Below, piece after piece: positions 3,625 through 22,544 of a DNA stretch of 44,370 bases. The notes beneath the pieces are model-generated. The model saw only the letters and a list, made by a program, of their open reading frames with translations, was not told where the DNA came from and did not search any database. The stretch comes from Mycobacterium sp. (GTDB lineage: Bacteria; Actinomycetota; Actinomycetes; Mycobacteriales; Mycobacteriaceae). The position numbers and the translations under genes are program-made. Where the stretch lies: positions 1 to 44,370 of the forward strand of contig JAOPVF010000405.1 in the NCBI GenBank assembly GCA_025963195.1. Reading direction: 5' to 3'. The stretch's first letter is position 1, and the number at the start of each line of letters is the position of its first letter.

Positions 3625-3957
3625 ATGCGATTGATGACGAAACTGGTTGTTGGGTCTTGTGGTTTGGCGTTTGCGCTGACCACTGGTGCCGGGATTGCCT
3701 CCGCAGTACCGGACGTGAGCCCGATCATCAATTCGACGTGCACCTATCCGCAGGTAATGTCGGCGCTGAACGCCGAGAATCCAGACGCGGCCAACCAGGT
3801 GACCTCCAACCCGATTGCGAATGCGTGGCTGCAACAGCTCGTCGCATCGCCTCCGGAGGGGCGTCGCGCGATGGTCGCGCAAGCACAGGGCGTACCGGCC
3901 CTCGCGCAATACACCGGGCTGATCTTCCAGGTTGCGGGTACCTGCAACAAGTACTGA
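3625..3957 (+). CDS. hemophore-related secreted protein (Rv0203-type)
   Basis: A 110-residue exported protein. The signal peptide (1-27) ends in GIASA, and the mature ~83 residues carry just two cysteines, C39 in STCTYPQ and C107 in GTCNKY, placed to form a disulfide joining the two ends of a small helical domain. This architecture matches mycobacterial hemophore-related proteins of the Rv0203 type, which bind and shuttle haem outside the membrane. The ATG at 3625 has GGAAGG nine bases upstream. Haem binding is inferred from the family; no haem-transport partner such as an MmpL gene is adjacent. Confidence 0.8.
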   Translation: MRLMTKLVVGSCGLAFALTTGAGIASAVPDVSPIINSTCTYPQVMSALNAENPDAANQVTSNPIANAWLQQLVASPPEGRRAMVAQAQGVPALAQYTGLIFQVAGTCNKY

Positions 3958-4034
3958 CCGCCATTCCGGGCAGTCACCGAGCAGTCATGAGTGACCAAGG
4001 TTTGTGACGCCGTCGACCGGGGAATCCCGCCGCC

Positions 4035-16598: not shown

Positions 16599-17717
16599 TC
16601 AAGCAACACCCTTCTGCTTCAGCAGCGGGAGCACGCCTTCGGCGAACCAGTACGCCTCCTCGAGGTGTGGGTAGCCCGACAAGATGAACTCGTCGAAGCC
16701 CAGCGAGTGGTACTCGAAGATCAGGTTGGCGACCTCCTGGTGGCTGCCGACCAGGGCCGTGCCCGCCCCGCCGCGCACCAGGCCGACGCCCGCCCACAGG
16801 TTGGGGTAGATCTCCAACTGGTCGAGCCGGCCACCGTGCAGGGCCGTCATCCGCCGCTGACCCTCCGACTCCGACTTGGCATGCAGCGCAGTCGCGTTCG
16901 TCACCTGCTCTTCTGTGAGCTCGCCGACCAGATCTCGAGCGACGGCCCACGCTGCGGCCGAGGTGTCGCGGCTGATGGTGTGCAGCCGGATCCCGAACCT
17001 AACCTTGCGGCCGCGGGCCTCGGCCAGCGTGCGCACCTGCTCGATCTTGGCCGCGGCGGCCTGAGGCGGCTCACCCCAGGTGAGGTACACGTCGACGTAC
17101 TCCGCAGCCACGGGCAACGCGGCGGCCGATGATCCGCCGAAGTAGATCGCGGGCAACGGATCCGGCGGTGCCGACACCCTGGCGTCGGCAACCTCGTAGT
17201 AGTCACCCTTGAAGTTCACGGACTCCTCGCGCCAGATCGAGGTCACAACGTTCAGGAATTCGGATGTGCGGGAGTAGCGTTCGTCATGGCCAAGCCAGTC
17301 ACCGAATCGGCGCTGCTCGACGTCGTCGCCACCGCTGACGACGTTGAGCAGCACCCTGCCCTCCGAGAACCGTTGCAGCGTCGCGGTCTGCTGCGCTGCC
17401 AGCGTCGGCGGGGTGAGGCCCGGCCGGAACGCGACGAGGAACTTCAGCCGCTCGGTCTCGGCCAGCAGCGCCGCCGCGGTCAACCATGCGTCCTCGCACC
17501 AGGTTCCGGTCGGCGTCAGAACGCCTTCGTATCCGAGCCGGTCGGCGGCGCGGGCCACTTCGGCGAGGTAGCGGCGGGTCGGGGCACGGTAGTTGTCGGG
17601 CACGGTGTGATGCGACGACGCGTGCGACGCACCGACGATGGAGCGGCTGTCACCGTTGGTGGGCAGGAACCAGAAGAACTTCGCACGCGAAGCGGGCAAT
17701 TCAACTTGAGTAGGCAT
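16599..17717 (-). CDS. ssuD: FMNH2-dependent alkanesulfonate monooxygenase
   Basis: A 372-residue LLM-class (luciferase-like) flavin monooxygenase that cleaves alkanesulfonates to sulfite and aldehyde using reduced FMN. Motifs typical of SsuD are 'FFWFLPTNGDSR' at the start, 'GYEGVLTPTG', 'FRPGLTPPTLAAQQTATL', 'LLNVVSGGD' and 'ILSGYPHLEEAYWFAEGVLPLL' at the C-terminus. It follows ssuA after 10 bases and is last of ssuC-ssuB-ssuA-ssuD. No NAD(P)H:FMN reductase (SsuE) gene is adjacent, so reduced flavin must come from elsewhere. Confidence 0.92.
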   Translation of the reverse strand: MPTQVELPASRAKFFWFLPTNGDSRSIVGASHASSHHTVPDNYRAPTRRYLAEVARAADRLGYEGVLTPTGTWCEDAWLTAAALLAETERLKFLVAFRPGLTPPTLAAQQTATLQRFSEGRVLLNVVSGGDDVEQRRFGDWLGHDERYSRTSEFLNVVTSIWREESVNFKGDYYEVADARVSAPPDPLPAIYFGGSSAAALPVAAEYVDVYLTWGEPPQAAAAKIEQVRTLAEARGRKVRFGIRLHTISRDTSAAAWAVARDLVGELTEEQVTNATALHAKSESEGQRRMTALHGGRLDQLEIYPNLWAGVGLVRGGAGTALVGSHQEVANLIFEYHSLGFDEFILSGYPHLEEAYWFAEGVLPLLKQKGVA

Positions 17718-17727
17718 GTGTGAACTC

Positions 17728-18753
17728 CTAGTTGGCGCTGATGAGCAGTGGACGCAGCGCGTCGTTGTAACGGCGGTCGACCCAGTCGACGAATTTCGGC
17801 GCTGCGGCGATCTGACCGGACTCGGCGAACAGGTCGGCGATCTTCTGTTCGGAGGCGACCACGGCGTCGTTGAGTTCGGTGGGCTTGCGCAAGCTGCGTG
17901 ACTGCGACACCTGGGCGACCTCGAGGTCCAGACCCACGGCCGCAGCGTAACTCTTGGCCCAATCCTCGGGATGGTCCTGAGCCCACCGGGCGGCCTTCTC
18001 GAACCGAATCAAGAAGTCTTCCAGCGCGGTGTTGCGCTTCGAGTCGGCCAGCGTCTGGTCGGACGCGATGCCGAACCAGTAGCCGTTGGTGACGTCCTTC
18101 GCCTGCCCGATGCTGCGCACCGGCAGCTGCGCGGCGGCTTGGGCGGTGTAGGGATCCCAGATCGCCCAGGCGTCTGCCTCCCGCTGCGTGAATGCCGACA
18201 GCGCGTCGGCGGGCTGCAGGAACACCAACTGGACGTCGGCCGGCGTGAGGCCCGCGTTCTTCAGCTGGGCCAGGATGTGGCCGTGCGCGGAACTCCCCTT
18301 GCCGACCGCGATGCGCTTGCCCCGCAATTCGGCGATGGACGTGATGGGCGAATCGGCGCGCACCAGCACCTGGTCGCCGTTGCCGCCTCCGTTGTAGGCC
18401 GAGACGACCTTGACCTTCGCGTTGGCGGCGGCGCCGAAGATCGGCGGGGTGTTCCCGGTGATCGCGAAGTCGATCTTGCCTGCAGTGGCGGCCTCCACCT
18501 GAGGTGGACCAGAGGTGAAGGTGGAGAACACCACCTTGTACGGCAGGTCGTTGAGTGCTCCCGCCGCGCGCAGCAGCGACTCGGTGCCGCCCTTCTGATC
18601 TCCGATCTGCAGTGTCACGTCGGAGAGTTCGCTCAGCGGCACGGTGGCCGGGGCCTGCTGGGGGCCTGAACTGTCCTGCCGGGACACACATCCGGTCAAC
18701 AGCAGGGCAAGTACGGCGATTAGGGCGGCGAAGGTTCGCCACATTCGGGGCAT
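17728..18753 (-). CDS. ssuA: aliphatic sulfonate ABC transporter, substrate-binding lipoprotein
   Basis: A 341-residue lipoprotein. The signal peptide ends in the lipobox LLTGC with Cys22. The rest is a periplasmic-binding protein of the SsuA/NitT/TauA type ('LQIGDQKGGTESLLRAAG', 'FAITGNTPPIFGAAAN', 'GSSAHGHILAQL'). It captures sulfonates for the SsuBC transporter. The ATG at 18753 is preferred because GAGGA lies five bases upstream; an in-frame ATG at 18765 would add four residues. The frame runs open to 19266 only because it shadows ssuB. Confidence 0.9.
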   Translation of the reverse strand: MPRMWRTFAALIAVLALLLTGCVSRQDSSGPQQAPATVPLSELSDVTLQIGDQKGGTESLLRAAGALNDLPYKVVFSTFTSGPPQVEAATAGKIDFAITGNTPPIFGAAANAKVKVVSAYNGGGNGDQVLVRADSPITSIAELRGKRIAVGKGSSAHGHILAQLKNAGLTPADVQLVFLQPADALSAFTQREADAWAIWDPYTAQAAAQLPVRSIGQAKDVTNGYWFGIASDQTLADSKRNTALEDFLIRFEKAARWAQDHPEDWAKSYAAAVGLDLEVAQVSQSRSLRKPTELNDAVVASEQKIADLFAESGQIAAAPKFVDWVDRRYNDALRPLLISAN

Positions 18754-18785
18754 GACTGTCCTCATAGGGTCTCGGTGAATCGTGG

Positions 18786-19523
18786 TCAGTTCTGGACGCC
18801 GAGCTTGTCGAGCAGCGCGGCGCGGTAGCGCTCGGTGTCGGCCGAGGGATCCGACGGCGGGCGGCGCGGATCGTCGATGACCATGGTGTGCACGACCCGT
18901 CCTTCGTCGAGCACCAGGACCCGGTCGGCGAGCGCGATCGCTTCGTCGACGTCGTGCGTCACCAACAGCACCCCGAATCCGTGTTCGCGCCACAGGTCGA
19001 GCAGCAGTTCCCGCATGCTCAACCGGGTCAGTGCGTCGAGGGCGCCGAATGGTTCGTCGAGCAGCAACAGCTCCGGGTCGGCGACCAGCGCGCGGGCCAA
19101 CGAAACCCGTTGGGCCTGACCGCCGGACAACGTGAGCGGCCAGACGCCCGCGCGGTCGGCGAGTCCAACGTCGGCCAGCGCACGATCGGCGCGGGCCAAT
19201 GTCTCGGCCTTCGACAGCTTGCTGCGGGTCAATCCGTAGACGACGTTGGTTCGCACGTCGCGCCACGGGAACAGGCGCGGCTCCTGGAATGCCATCGCGG
19301 GCGCCCCTGCGACGACGCGTTCACCGGTGTGGTCGGGTGACAGGCCCGACAACACCCGCAGCACCGTCGACTTTCCGGAACCGCTGCGGCCGATCAGCGC
19401 GACGATCTCACCCTTGCCGATCTGCAGGGAGACGTCGACGAGCACGTGATGCCCGCCGTACCACTTGTCGACGTGGCGCAGCTCACCTGCGGTGCCGGTC
19501 CTGCGTTCGGAGGTAACGGTCAC
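18786..19523 (-). CDS. ssuB: aliphatic sulfonate ABC transporter, ATP-binding protein
   Basis: A 245-residue ABC ATPase. Walker A is GRSGSGKST (45-53), the Q-loop Q80 lies in AFQEPRLFPW, the signature LSGGQ is at 132-136, and Walker B LLLLDEP is at 152-158, followed by the H-loop in LLVTHDVDEA. The FQEPRLFPW segment is typical of the sulfonate/nitrate/taurine importer ATPases. The ATG at 19523 overlaps the ssuC stop by four bases (ATGA), so translation is coupled. It powers uptake through SsuC. Confidence 0.93.
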   Translation of the reverse strand: MTVTSERRTGTAGELRHVDKWYGGHHVLVDVSLQIGKGEIVALIGRSGSGKSTVLRVLSGLSPDHTGERVVAGAPAMAFQEPRLFPWRDVRTNVVYGLTRSKLSKAETLARADRALADVGLADRAGVWPLTLSGGQAQRVSLARALVADPELLLLDEPFGALDALTRLSMRELLLDLWREHGFGVLLVTHDVDEAIALADRVLVLDEGRVVHTMVIDDPRRPPSDPSADTERYRAALLDKLGVQN

Positions 19524-20335
19524 GAGCGGTACCTCAGGGCTCGGCGTTCCATGGCGCGCACTCCTGCGTCGGTGCCGATGCCCAGCAGGGCATAGACGAT
19601 CAGACCGAAGATGATGATGTCGATGCGAAGGAAGTCGCGTGCGTTGTTGATGAGGAAGCCGATTCCCTTGTCTGCGTTGATCTGCTCGGCGACGATCAGG
19701 GTCAGCCAGGCGATGGCCAACGACTGACGGAAGCCCACGAGCACCTGCGGTGCTGCGCTCGGCACGATGATGGTGCGGAACCGCTGCCAGAACGAGAAGC
19801 CAAGCACCTGGGCGGTTTCGAACAGCTTGGGGTCGACCTGCCGGATCGCCGAGAACGTGTTGAGGTACAGCGGAAAACTGACGCCGAGCGCCACCAGCAG
19901 TACCTTCGGCAGTTCACCGATGCCGAACCACAGGATGAACAGCGGGATCAGGCCGAGGTGCGGAAGCGCGCGAACCATCTGCATCGGCGGGTCGACCGTC
20001 GCCTCGAACCATCGGGACAGACCGACGGCGGTGCCCAGTGCCAGGCCGATCACCCCGCCGAGGATGAGGCCCTCCACCACGCGGATCCCGGATACTCGCA
20101 GCGCATCGGCGAGTTGGCCGTTCTTGATGAGTTCGATTCCGGCCTCGAGGATCAGCGACGGGGCCGGCAGCACGTCCTGCGAGATCAACCCGACGGCGCT
20201 GCCCAACTGCCACAACGCCAGCAGGATGACTGGGGACAGCAGCCGGATCAGGCCCCACTTGCGCTGCCGCGGGCTCGTTTTGGCCGTCGACGAAGCCACC
20301 GTGGTCACGGCGGCGGGCTGGACGGGAGTGGTCAC
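19520..20335 (-). CDS. ssuC: aliphatic sulfonate ABC transporter, permease
   Basis: A 271-residue ABC permease of the BPD_transp_1 type with about six membrane helices after a polar N-terminus of ~30 residues. The cytoplasmic coupling loop is visible in 'ETAQVLGFSFWQRFRTIIVPSAAPQVLVG', and the 'ALPHLGLIPLFILWFGIGELPK' region is typical of SsuC/TauC. It is the first gene of the operon, with GTG start at 20335 and a TAGGGT -10-like element nine bases upstream. It forms the transmembrane channel with SsuB. Confidence 0.92.
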   Translation of the reverse strand: MTTPVQPAAVTTVASSTAKTSPRQRKWGLIRLLSPVILLALWQLGSAVGLISQDVLPAPSLILEAGIELIKNGQLADALRVSGIRVVEGLILGGVIGLALGTAVGLSRWFEATVDPPMQMVRALPHLGLIPLFILWFGIGELPKVLLVALGVSFPLYLNTFSAIRQVDPKLFETAQVLGFSFWQRFRTIIVPSAAPQVLVGFRQSLAIAWLTLIVAEQINADKGIGFLINNARDFLRIDIIIFGLIVYALLGIGTDAGVRAMERRALRYRS

Positions 20336-20449: not shown

Positions 20450-21157
20450 TCAGGCGAAGCGCGTGTTGCCCGTGACCAGATCACCGGTGACGTCGGTCCC
20501 GTTGATCTTCGAGGTCAGCTTGTTGTTCGCCAGCTTCACCGTCTGGTCGGCCTGCTGCAGGATCCGCTTGTTGCGGACCGTGGCCTGGAACTGCTGGTTG
20601 TTGAGCTGCTGCAGTTCGGCCTGCTCGAAGTCGCGGCCGGTGATGCCACCGTTGAACTGCACACCGGTCACCGAGCCGTCGGGACGCACGATCCAGGAGG
20701 CGCGCACGCCATTGAGTGCAGCGGTGTACATGCCTGCAGGCGAGGACACCGGAGCGGCGGTGAAGTCGTAGCTGACGCCGTTCATGGTCAGATCGCCCTT
20801 CACGTCCGAGCCGGTGAACTTTGCGTTCAGCGTGTCGCGGAACTTGTTCTTGACGTCGATGGCGCCGTTGGCCTGGTTGCCGAAGAACCACGCCTCGTCG
20901 TCGACGCCGTTGCAGGCGTAGGCGGTGATGTCGTTGCCGTCGACGGAGATTCCGATGGCCATCTTCTTTCCGTCCTTCTCGATGTCGGCCATGTACCTGG
21001 CCGATGTGGGGAAGGGCGCGGCCGTCGCGGGTGCCGCAGAGGACGGCGCCTGCGCGGGCGTCGCTTCCGTGGACGAGCCGCTCGAGCAGGCGGTCAGGGT
21101 ACCCAGCGCGAGCATTGCGCTGACACCGATGAGCAGGGTGCGGAACTGTTTTCTCAT
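20450..21157 (-). CDS. mycobacterial lipoprotein of unknown function
   Basis: A 235-residue lipoprotein. The signal peptide ends in LTAC with Cys24, followed by a Ser/Thr/Ala/Pro-rich linker (25-50). The domain ('YMADIEKDGKKMAIGISVDG', 'ITAYACNGVDDEAWFFG', 'FTGSDVKGDLTMNGVSYDF') looks like repeated beta strands with two similar 'DVKGDLTMNG'/'DVTGDLVTGN' turns, suggesting an internally repeated beta structure. The frame is open to 21214, but the ATG at 21157 gives a proper signal peptide. Three 11-bp direct repeats lie 31-63 bases upstream and a strong terminator follows, so it is probably a single-gene unit controlled at those repeats. Confidence 0.82.
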   Translation of the reverse strand: MRKQFRTLLIGVSAMLALGTLTACSSGSSTEATPAQAPSSAAPATAAPFPTSARYMADIEKDGKKMAIGISVDGNDITAYACNGVDDEAWFFGNQANGAIDVKNKFRDTLNAKFTGSDVKGDLTMNGVSYDFTAAPVSSPAGMYTAALNGVRASWIVRPDGSVTGVQFNGGITGRDFEQAELQQLNNQQFQATVRNKRILQQADQTVKLANNKLTSKINGTDVTGDLVTGNTRFA

Positions 21158-21187
21158 GTCACCAGCATGCTTCGCGGCCCGCAGCAG

Positions 21188-21220
21188 TGCATGAAGATTG
21201 TATGGAGATTGCATGGAGAT
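21188..21220. repeat. three tandem 11-bp direct repeats (candidate PhoB/OmpR-type operator)
   Basis: TGCATGAAGAT (21188-21198), TGTATGGAGAT (21199-21209) and TGCATGGAGAT (21210-21220) are contiguous with no spacer, consensus TGYATGRAGAT. Read on the lipoprotein strand they are ATCTYCATRCA, 31-63 bases before its ATG, where a -35/-10 region would lie. Direct repeats with an 11-bp period are the classic target of PhoB-type winged helices, and the gene just upstream encodes such a domain. Confidence 0.75.
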
Positions 21221-21272
21221 ATGAACGCACTTCCGGGGCGAGCGAAGCGACGGGGTGGTTATTGCTCGGCGG

Positions 21273-22544
21273 TCATTCAGCCAAGAACGACTCGACCTCG
21301 GAACAGAACACCGGCCACGCGGGCTCGGTCTCGGTGAGCAGGTGGTTGTTGCTCGAAAGTGCCACCAGTCGCGAATCCGGTATCAGCGCGGCCAACTCCT
21401 CGCCATAGCGCATCGGCACGCGGTGATCATCGCGGGAATGCATGATCAGCGTCGGACACGACACCTGTTCCGCCAGTTCGCGTACGTCGATGCGGGCGAA
21501 TTCCTCGAGGAAGCGCACGGCGTTGTCCGGGGATGTGGTGCGGCGCTGCAGGTGGTCGAACGCCTCCCAGTCCGCACGGGATCCGTCGGGCAGGAACTGC
21601 GCTGCGAACACCTGCCGGAATGCCGGATCATCGCGACCCCAGCCAACCCGCGCGAGGTCGAGATCCAGTGCGGCCGCACGCCTCTCGGCATCGTCGATGG
21701 CACGCACCGCACGTCCCCGTGCGTAGGACGAACACAGGATGAGCTTGGTTACCCGCTCGGGATGCTTGGCCGCGTATGCCACCGCCACCGCGCCGCCCTG
21801 CGACACCCCGAGAAGCGGAAATCGTTCCAGCCCCAGCGCTTCGACGACGGACGCCAGGTCCGACACCCAATCGTCGAACGTGAAATCGGCTGCTTCCCAA
21901 TCCGATAGGCCGCAACCTCGTTCGTCGTACCGGATGAAGGTATGGCGGGCGGCGAGGTCGCGAACCCAGTGCCGCCAGACCGGGCTCTCGATGTCGTAGC
22001 CCAGGTGGGTCATCCAATTCGCGGCCCGCACCAAGGACGGGCCCTCCCCCGCGACCGCATACGCCAACCGCACACCGTCGGCCGCTCGGCAGAACGAGAT
22101 GTGCTGGCGCGGCGGCGGCGCCGATTCCGGTACCGCAGGCTTTGCCTCCGGCGTGTCTGTTGCGATGGTGCCGACGAACTGATAGCCACGGCCGCGCACG
22201 GTCCGGATGTAGCGCTGCGACTCGCCGTCATCGCCGAGCGCGTGCCGAACCGCCTTGATTCGGCTGGTCAGTGCCGCCTCGCCGACGAACCGGCCACCCC
22301 ACACCGTGTCGAACAACTCTTCCTTCGTGACGAACCGGTCGTGATTACTGACCAGATGCGTCATGACGTCGAACACCTGCGGTTCGACCTTGATCACGTC
22401 ACCGTCTCGGCGCAGTTCATAGCGGGCGGTGTCCAACGCGAAGTCATCGAACCGCCACACCCGGCCGGCGGGGGCCGGTTCCGGGGTCGACTCCGTTGAC
22501 GACAGGGTCAATTCGATCCGATCTCGAGGTTGGCGATCTCGCAT
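21273..22544 (-). CDS. OmpR/PhoB-type winged helix fused to an alpha/beta hydrolase
   Basis: A 423-residue fusion. Residues ~28-126 are an OmpR/PhoB-type winged-helix DNA-binding domain: 'VEPQVFDVMTHLVSNHDRFVTKEEL', a recognition helix in 'EAALTSRIKAVRHALGDDG', and the wing 'YIRTVRGRGYQFVG'. After a Pro/Ala linker, residues ~148-423 are an alpha/beta hydrolase with a likely intact triad: S248 in GVSQG, D372 in HSRDDHRVP and H401 in SNNH. There is no response-regulator receiver domain, so the hydrolase fold probably senses or processes a ligand. ATG 22544 is used; a TTG at 22511 is an alternative. The frame is open to 22910. Likely target: the repeats at 21188-21220. Confidence 0.87.
   Translation of the reverse strand: MRDRQPRDRIELTLSSTESTPEPAPAGRVWRFDDFALDTARYELRRDGDVIKVEPQVFDVMTHLVSNHDRFVTKEELFDTVWGGRFVGEAALTSRIKAVRHALGDDGESQRYIRTVRGRGYQFVGTIATDTPEAKPAVPESAPPPRQHISFCRAADGVRLAYAVAGEGPSLVRAANWMTHLGYDIESPVWRHWVRDLAARHTFIRYDERGCGLSDWEAADFTFDDWVSDLASVVEALGLERFPLLGVSQGGAVAVAYAAKHPERVTKLILCSSYARGRAVRAIDDAERRAAALDLDLARVGWGRDDPAFRQVFAAQFLPDGSRADWEAFDHLQRRTTSPDNAVRFLEEFARIDVRELAEQVSCPTLIMHSRDDHRVPMRYGEELAALIPDSRLVALSSNNHLLTETEPAWPVFCSEVESFLAE

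Follow-up and report, generated by a model that had tools for sequence, protein, structure and literature searches.

A mycobacterial regulator joining a PhoB-type winged helix to an alpha/beta hydrolase, and an array of three 11-bp direct repeats as its predicted operator

The window, a 44,370-nucleotide stretch of Mycobacterium sp. DNA (contig JAOPVF010000405.1), includes a gene for a putative regulator in which a winged helix is fused to an alpha/beta hydrolase, and this gene lies beside a lipoprotein gene that is preceded by three direct repeats. The question raised by this locus is whether the regulator reads the repeats and, if so, which genes it would control.

The regulator gene (21273-22544, reverse strand, ATG at 22544 and stop at 21273) was defined from its open reading frame, Pfam and an AlphaFold2 model, and predicts a protein of 423 aa. 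The winged-helix DNA-binding domain covers residues ~28-126 (22167-22463, reverse strand), as judged from a Trans_reg_C match, the modelled secondary structure and conservation among homologues, and the alpha/beta hydrolase domain covers residues ~147-423 (21276-22106, reverse strand) on the basis of an Abhydrolase_1 match, homologue conservation and Foldseek. The match to Trans_reg_C [PF00486] spans residues 50-123 (E 1.3e-16; 60.9 bits against a cut-off of 26.2) and places the domain in the OmpR/PhoB winged-helix superfamily, and that to Abhydrolase_1 spans residues 187-407 (E 2.6e-27). Both domains are modelled with confidence (mean pLDDT 87.8, pTM 0.73), with the recognition helix at approximately residues 89-102 in the secondary structure of the model, and the winged helix is the best-conserved region in alignments of homologues. 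No receiver domain was detected by Pfam, and the first 27 residues are too short for one and are modelled with low confidence, which sets the protein apart from response regulators; nor did Pfam detect a BTAD domain after the winged helix, as would be expected of SARP/AfsR proteins. Only two soluble domains are visible in the Pfam results and the model, confirming the receiver-less fusion of an OmpR/PhoB-type winged helix to a hydrolase that had been proposed from the sequence-only reading.

Pfam, alignments, the model and Foldseek together identify the hydrolase fold, nucleophile elbow, acid and histidine expected of the superfamily. Homologue alignments assign the triad to Ser248 (21801-21803), Asp373 (21426-21428) and His401 (21342-21344), all on the reverse strand. 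The serine and histidine named earlier therefore stand, but Asp372, previously given as the acid, is ruled out, as the conserved acid sits in HSRD-D373-HRVP and position 372 is variously D, E, N or G. Of 34 divergent homologues, 90% or more retain Ser248 and His401, and most retain Asp373. The catalytic serine is absent from two proteobacterial homologues (L202, 4001-5134, and L208, 2464-3555), where ANLQAG and ATLQSA replace GVSQGG. Foldseek matches of the hydrolase domain include esterases, an enol-lactonase, bromoperoxidases and the plant receptors KAI2 and DAD2. Among the 60 matches listed in a sequence search of solved structures, none spans both domains, and each domain matches separate chains.

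Three contiguous 11-mers lie between the two genes, as first described, 31-63 bp ahead of the ATG (21157) of the lipoprotein gene. Along the coding strand of that gene (the reverse strand), they are ATCTCCATGCA (21210-21220), ATCTCCATACA (21199-21209) and ATCTTCATGCA (21188-21198). All are conserved in homologues as parts of the predicted operator, and the third, which has its own consensus (YCTYCAWGYR), covers the -35 position. A -10-like hexamer, CATGCT (21164-21169, reverse strand), begins 18 bp past the array, and the start codon of the lipoprotein gene (20450-21157, reverse strand; 235 aa, lipobox LTAC-S) lies 30 bp past it. The three-core pattern has a single match in the window, with 0 mismatches, and shuffling predicts 0.03 matches even with 3 mismatches allowed. 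Three in-register units of 11-bp period, present in the window and in its relatives, are the form expected of an OmpR/PhoB-type operator. The lipoprotein has no match in Pfam or NCBIfam, and its AlphaFold2 model is beta-rich (pLDDT 78.9), with no significant Foldseek match among solved structures. Adjoining the lipoprotein gene is a likely sulfonate-type uptake set (16599-20335, reverse strand) of a luciferase-like monooxygenase, a substrate-binding lipoprotein, an ABC ATPase and a permease. No tRNA genes were found in the window.

Whether array and regulator belong together was examined across the genus using the pattern TCTCCA-N5-TCTCCA-N5-YCTYCA with no more than one mismatch, and the reversed pattern as a control. 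The DNA-binding domain is present in 59 of 248 genomes, and every one of these 59 carries arrays, with as many as nine in a single genome. Of the 189 genomes that lack the domain, 7 have arrays, with one match each, and the reversed pattern is found in 5 (Fisher p 1e-49 for co-occurrence, a summary value only, as kinship is ignored and the relatedness of the genomes means that it overstates independence). When 24 regulator-bearing genomes were scanned jointly, arrays were found in 24/24 and the control gave zero. In a sample of 118 genomes, 27 encode the full-length regulator and 32 the lipoprotein or a relative, and the array is located 30-31 bp before the lipoprotein start in 27/27 of the regulator-bearing genomes (G041 among them), three seemingly longer gaps being a matter of start-codon choice. 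The conservation beside this gene pair that the sequence-only reading had suggested looking for is thus borne out. The gap is likewise 30 bp in 44 and 31 bp in 7 of 51 named, separately fetched orthologous loci. Three genomes (G101, G028 and G113) have retained the lipoprotein (55-62% identity) and lost both regulator and array, with no DNA-binding-domain homologue and zero arrays anywhere in the genome. Against the pairing, G095 has one array with two mismatches despite the absence of the regulator. Arrays without the third unit in G024 and G003 were set aside as background. In G009, the lipoprotein-adjacent regulator gene is split into two frames (C1:2529825-2531020) and the array is kept, and a second, intact copy is found at C1:5401328. 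In-frame stop codons occur in lipoprotein paralogues at G042:C83, G028:C254 and G101:C1:3962831, two of these genomes being among the three without a regulator.

Natural truncations separate the contributions of the two domains. In G035 and G081, the rbpA-linked locus encodes a protein of ~170-180 residues in which a short, different tail follows the winged helix in place of the hydrolase, and six and four arrays, respectively, are retained. Only short frames (171-258 aa) occur at the winged-helix matches in G136, G151, G153 and G186, and arrays are present. Because genomes with only the DNA-binding domain keep arrays, the arrays track this domain and not the hydrolase, and the idea that the hydrolase is required for array recognition was rejected; it is therefore unnecessary for the choice of site. 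A site read by the winged helix would be expected to persist in this way. At L212 (3983-4495 and 4471-5846), L092 and L093, an ECF sigma factor gene comes next after the DNA-binding-domain-only form, and at least in L212 a likely anti-sigma factor gene is there too, as if a sigma/anti-sigma pair had replaced the hydrolase.

Homologues of the regulator with 33-60% identity were found in Phytoactinopolyspora, Nakamurella, Nocardioides, Acidimicrobiia, Gemmatimonadetes and Alphaproteobacteria. A TCTCCA array scoring at least 15/18 lies beside the homologue in 8 of 18 loci from outside Mycobacterium. Over these 18 distant loci, TCTCCA was the best of 60 permuted cores, and alternative periods of 7-16 gave no locus at 15/18 or above, only period 11 doing so. 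The distant arrays are often in a divergent promoter region, ~75-125 bp before the regulator coding match. Whole-genome scans of hosts outside the genus detected arrays in 11/13, with one control match in all, and in both of two Gemmatimonadetes genomes an array precedes a selenium-binding-protein-type gene. The motif is absent from most of the Alphaproteobacterial homologues, which counts against universal pairing, and site specificity has therefore probably changed in these relatives. Where homologues lack arrays, their upstream regions were searched for 11-bp repeats of any sequence and nothing significant emerged, the borderline case being L200 (14/200 shuffles equal). This Alphaproteobacterial locus has imperfect TCTTCA-type repeats of 11-bp period just upstream (3927-3970), possibly representing a shifted specificity. 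Co-occurrence, loss, truncation and the cross-phylum distribution together strongly support the proposed link between protein and repeats, and comparative genomics thus establishes, at the level of sequence, a pairing of the DNA-binding domain with the array.

Control of the neighbouring lipoprotein alone, as first proposed, can be rejected given the genome-wide set of array-led genes; an array does precede the lipoprotein gene, but the claim was too narrow, as the arrays appear to mark a regulon. The sensing of an ester or lipid first proposed for the hydrolase domain likewise stands as a prediction. Elsewhere in the genus, arrays precede genes for UGT-like glycosyltransferases (26 by rule and two by eye), secreted proteins of ~100 aa (24), ECF sigma factors (8), membrane-anchored paralogues of the lipoprotein (7 and one by eye) and a short protein with the C-terminal sequence AMAREMH (3). 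The nearest family of an array-led glycosyltransferase is the macrolide family TIGR01426 (E 2.8e-42, below the cut-off), and that of an array-led sigma factor is the SigH-type family TIGR02947, also below the cut-off. The secreted family (VTIGxLEAQGFDVKVDRVGSAPLxxC; L120, 2143-2463, and L110, 1622-1918) has no Pfam or NCBIfam match and is strongly array-linked. The genome from which the window derives has arrays before the lipoprotein (C2), a glycosyltransferase (C72), a lipoprotein paralogue (C289) and a secreted protein (C576), and a further array in C99. The latter (G000:C99:5017-5044) is perfect, with CATGCT at +18 and then a GTG-started ORF of 70 codons. The array-led genes of other phyla are of the OsmC, PIG-L, SBP56, FAD-dependent oxidoreductase, AzlC and GNAT types. 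What all these targets share may be a role in dealing with small molecules, reactive or foreign, and with the envelope. A second clade of the hydrolase-fused regulator adjoins an ECF sigma factor gene with an array promoter (L179, L181, L182 and L183; G027:C10; G098:C1:260060), an arrangement that, from gene order, is a predicted regulator-to-sigma-factor cascade.

The promoter geometry can be read directly from the DNA. A NANNNT hexamer begins 18 bp past the array in 85 and 19 bp past it in 10 of 98 unique arrays, and in a larger set of 160 distinct arrays it is at +18 in 116 and at +19 in 21; the same placement is seen at arrays of other phyla. The third unit has a sequence (YCTYCAWGYR) distinct from that of the other two, and its ninth position is G in 97% of the 98 arrays. 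None of 137 -10 boxes has T at the first position (0/137; background about 3%), whereas a TANNNT box is found at 73% of primary start sites in M. tuberculosis (PMC3898074), which suggests weak promoters that need help. The fixed spacing and the weak -10 argue for activation by contact with RNA polymerase, and the placement of the array suggests activation of the class II type. The promoters of the lipoprotein, the glycosyltransferase and several other genes have the start codon 6-7 bp past the -10 box, and their mRNAs should therefore be leaderless or nearly so, as is the case for roughly one in four M. tuberculosis genes that have a primary start site (PMC3898074).

We regard as probable a soluble one-component regulator, three protomers of which occupy the three repeats and most likely activate the array-led regulon, with the hydrolase as sensor; the physical binding, the activation and the ligand are what we infer. 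Three copies of the regulator would bind head to tail, through their winged helices, to the three 11-bp repeats (core TCTCCA; third unit YCTYCAWGY), the third copy lying over the -35 position and 18-19 bp before a weak -10 (NANNNT, with no initial T in the sites counted). M. tuberculosis PhoP recognises 7-bp motifs with a strict 4-bp spacer, giving an 11-bp period, as tandem dimers, and binds three motifs more tightly than two (PMC4832192). An ATCTCCA core followed by four variable bases fits this 7+4 reading, so that three protomers on three repeats would be the simplest model. The bound regulator would most likely activate by touching RNA polymerase, producing mRNAs often with little or no leader. 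Related hydrolases act as receptors of signals or in stress regulation (KAI2, DAD2 and RsbQ; PMC3548789), and by analogy the hydrolase domain likely perceives a lipophilic small molecule, an ester or lactone, which it would bind or slowly hydrolyse and which would control assembly or activity of the trimer. Predicted targets are the neighbouring lipoprotein and its paralogues, the small secreted proteins, the macrolide-type glycosyltransferase and ECF sigma factors, and elsewhere OsmC, PIG-L, SBP56 and FAD enzymes.

Several other explanations were weighed. That the repeats are a structural or chance tandem repeat and no operator has a negligible probability; slippage can create short tandem repeats, but the low expectation in the window, the reversed-pattern control of zero in the 24 regulator-bearing genomes and the 160 distinct arrays, the majority of them constantly spaced from a -10 box, already refute it. 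The arrays might instead be read by another response regulator of the OmpR/PhoB type, the hydrolase-fused protein being a bystander. Many response regulators use direct repeats of 11-bp period (PMC4832192), and co-occurrence within the genus may stem from common descent. However, the perfect co-occurrence with this particular DNA-binding domain, the loss of arrays where the domain is lost, their retention where only the domain remains and their occurrence next to homologues from other orders and from Gemmatimonadota make this very improbable.

The regulator may also bind the arrays but repress, blocking RNA polymerase at -35 until released by the ligand, and the overlap of the third repeat with -35 is a position equally suited to a repressor, as is the location of the gene, which adjoins or diverges from its target as for many repressors. 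PhoB-type boxes at -35 are, however, usually activating, and a roadblock would not need a spacing to -10 that is fixed at 18-19 bp across phyla. As -10 boxes without an initial T (against the 73% of PMC3898074) also point to promoters in need of help, we consider repression unlikely. Somewhat unlikely, too, is a hydrolase that is not a ligand sensor and serves as an inert oligomerisation platform or unrelated enzyme, with activity set by expression level. The DNA-binding-domain-only forms with retained arrays and the two homologues without a nucleophile would fit such a role, but the conservation of Ser248 and His401 across divergent homologues, and the signalling function of the relatives KAI2, DAD2 and RsbQ (PMC3548789), the first two among the Foldseek matches, argue for sensing. 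A bolder extension of the activator-and-sensor reading, which we put forward tentatively and rate as somewhat short of probable, is that the protein would be a widespread, single-polypeptide bacterial counterpart of the plant D14/KAI2 receptors, in which recognition, and perhaps slow hydrolysis, of an ester or lactone switches on a chemical-defence and envelope regulon through a trimeric operator of 11-bp repeats shared across phyla.

In many mycobacteria and several other lineages, this regulator family is now paired with a precisely defined DNA site that can be tested and with a list of targets across the genome, and the signal should therefore be findable by reporter screens. The system would exemplify a one-component design with a hydrolase as sensor and a PhoB-type domain as output, and would place macrolide-type glycosyltransferases, ECF sigma factors and undescribed mycobacterial secreted and lipoprotein families under one switch. 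The open-access literature searched held no relevant description of a winged-helix/hydrolase regulator or of the TCTCCA repeat; the winged helix, hydrolase fold and 11-bp direct repeats are parts of known kinds, but those papers did not yield their combination in a one-component regulator to which an operator and regulon are assigned.

Among known systems, the OmpR/PhoB response regulators (PhoP, RegX3 and MtrA of M. tuberculosis; PhoB of E. coli) share the PF00486 domain, direct repeats of 11-bp period (7-bp motif plus 4 bp), tandem protomers and the -35 position. The protein described here differs in having a hydrolase and no receiver, hence no phospho-relay by that route, and its predicted site in having three units as a rule and the core TCTCCA. 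CadC, ToxR and HilA also carry an N-terminal PhoB-type domain without a receiver (NCBIfam matches to HilA/EilA and CadC are far below cut-off), but the C-terminal part here is a soluble alpha/beta hydrolase and not a membrane or TPR-type domain. SARP/AfsR/EmbR proteins likewise place a winged helix on direct repeats near -35, and a hydrolase is found here instead of BTAD. LipJ [NF058673], a lipase-adenylate cyclase fusion, is another mycobacterial hydrolase joined to an output domain (an NCBIfam match at E 1.8e-25, well under the cut-off), but its output is a cyclase, whereas that of the regulator is a DNA-binding domain. RsbQ and plant D14/KAI2 share the alpha/beta hydrolase fold and the Ser-Asp-His triad, a structural similarity, with KAI2 and DAD2 among the Foldseek matches; they work via partner proteins, whereas the hydrolase here is fused directly to the DNA-binding domain.
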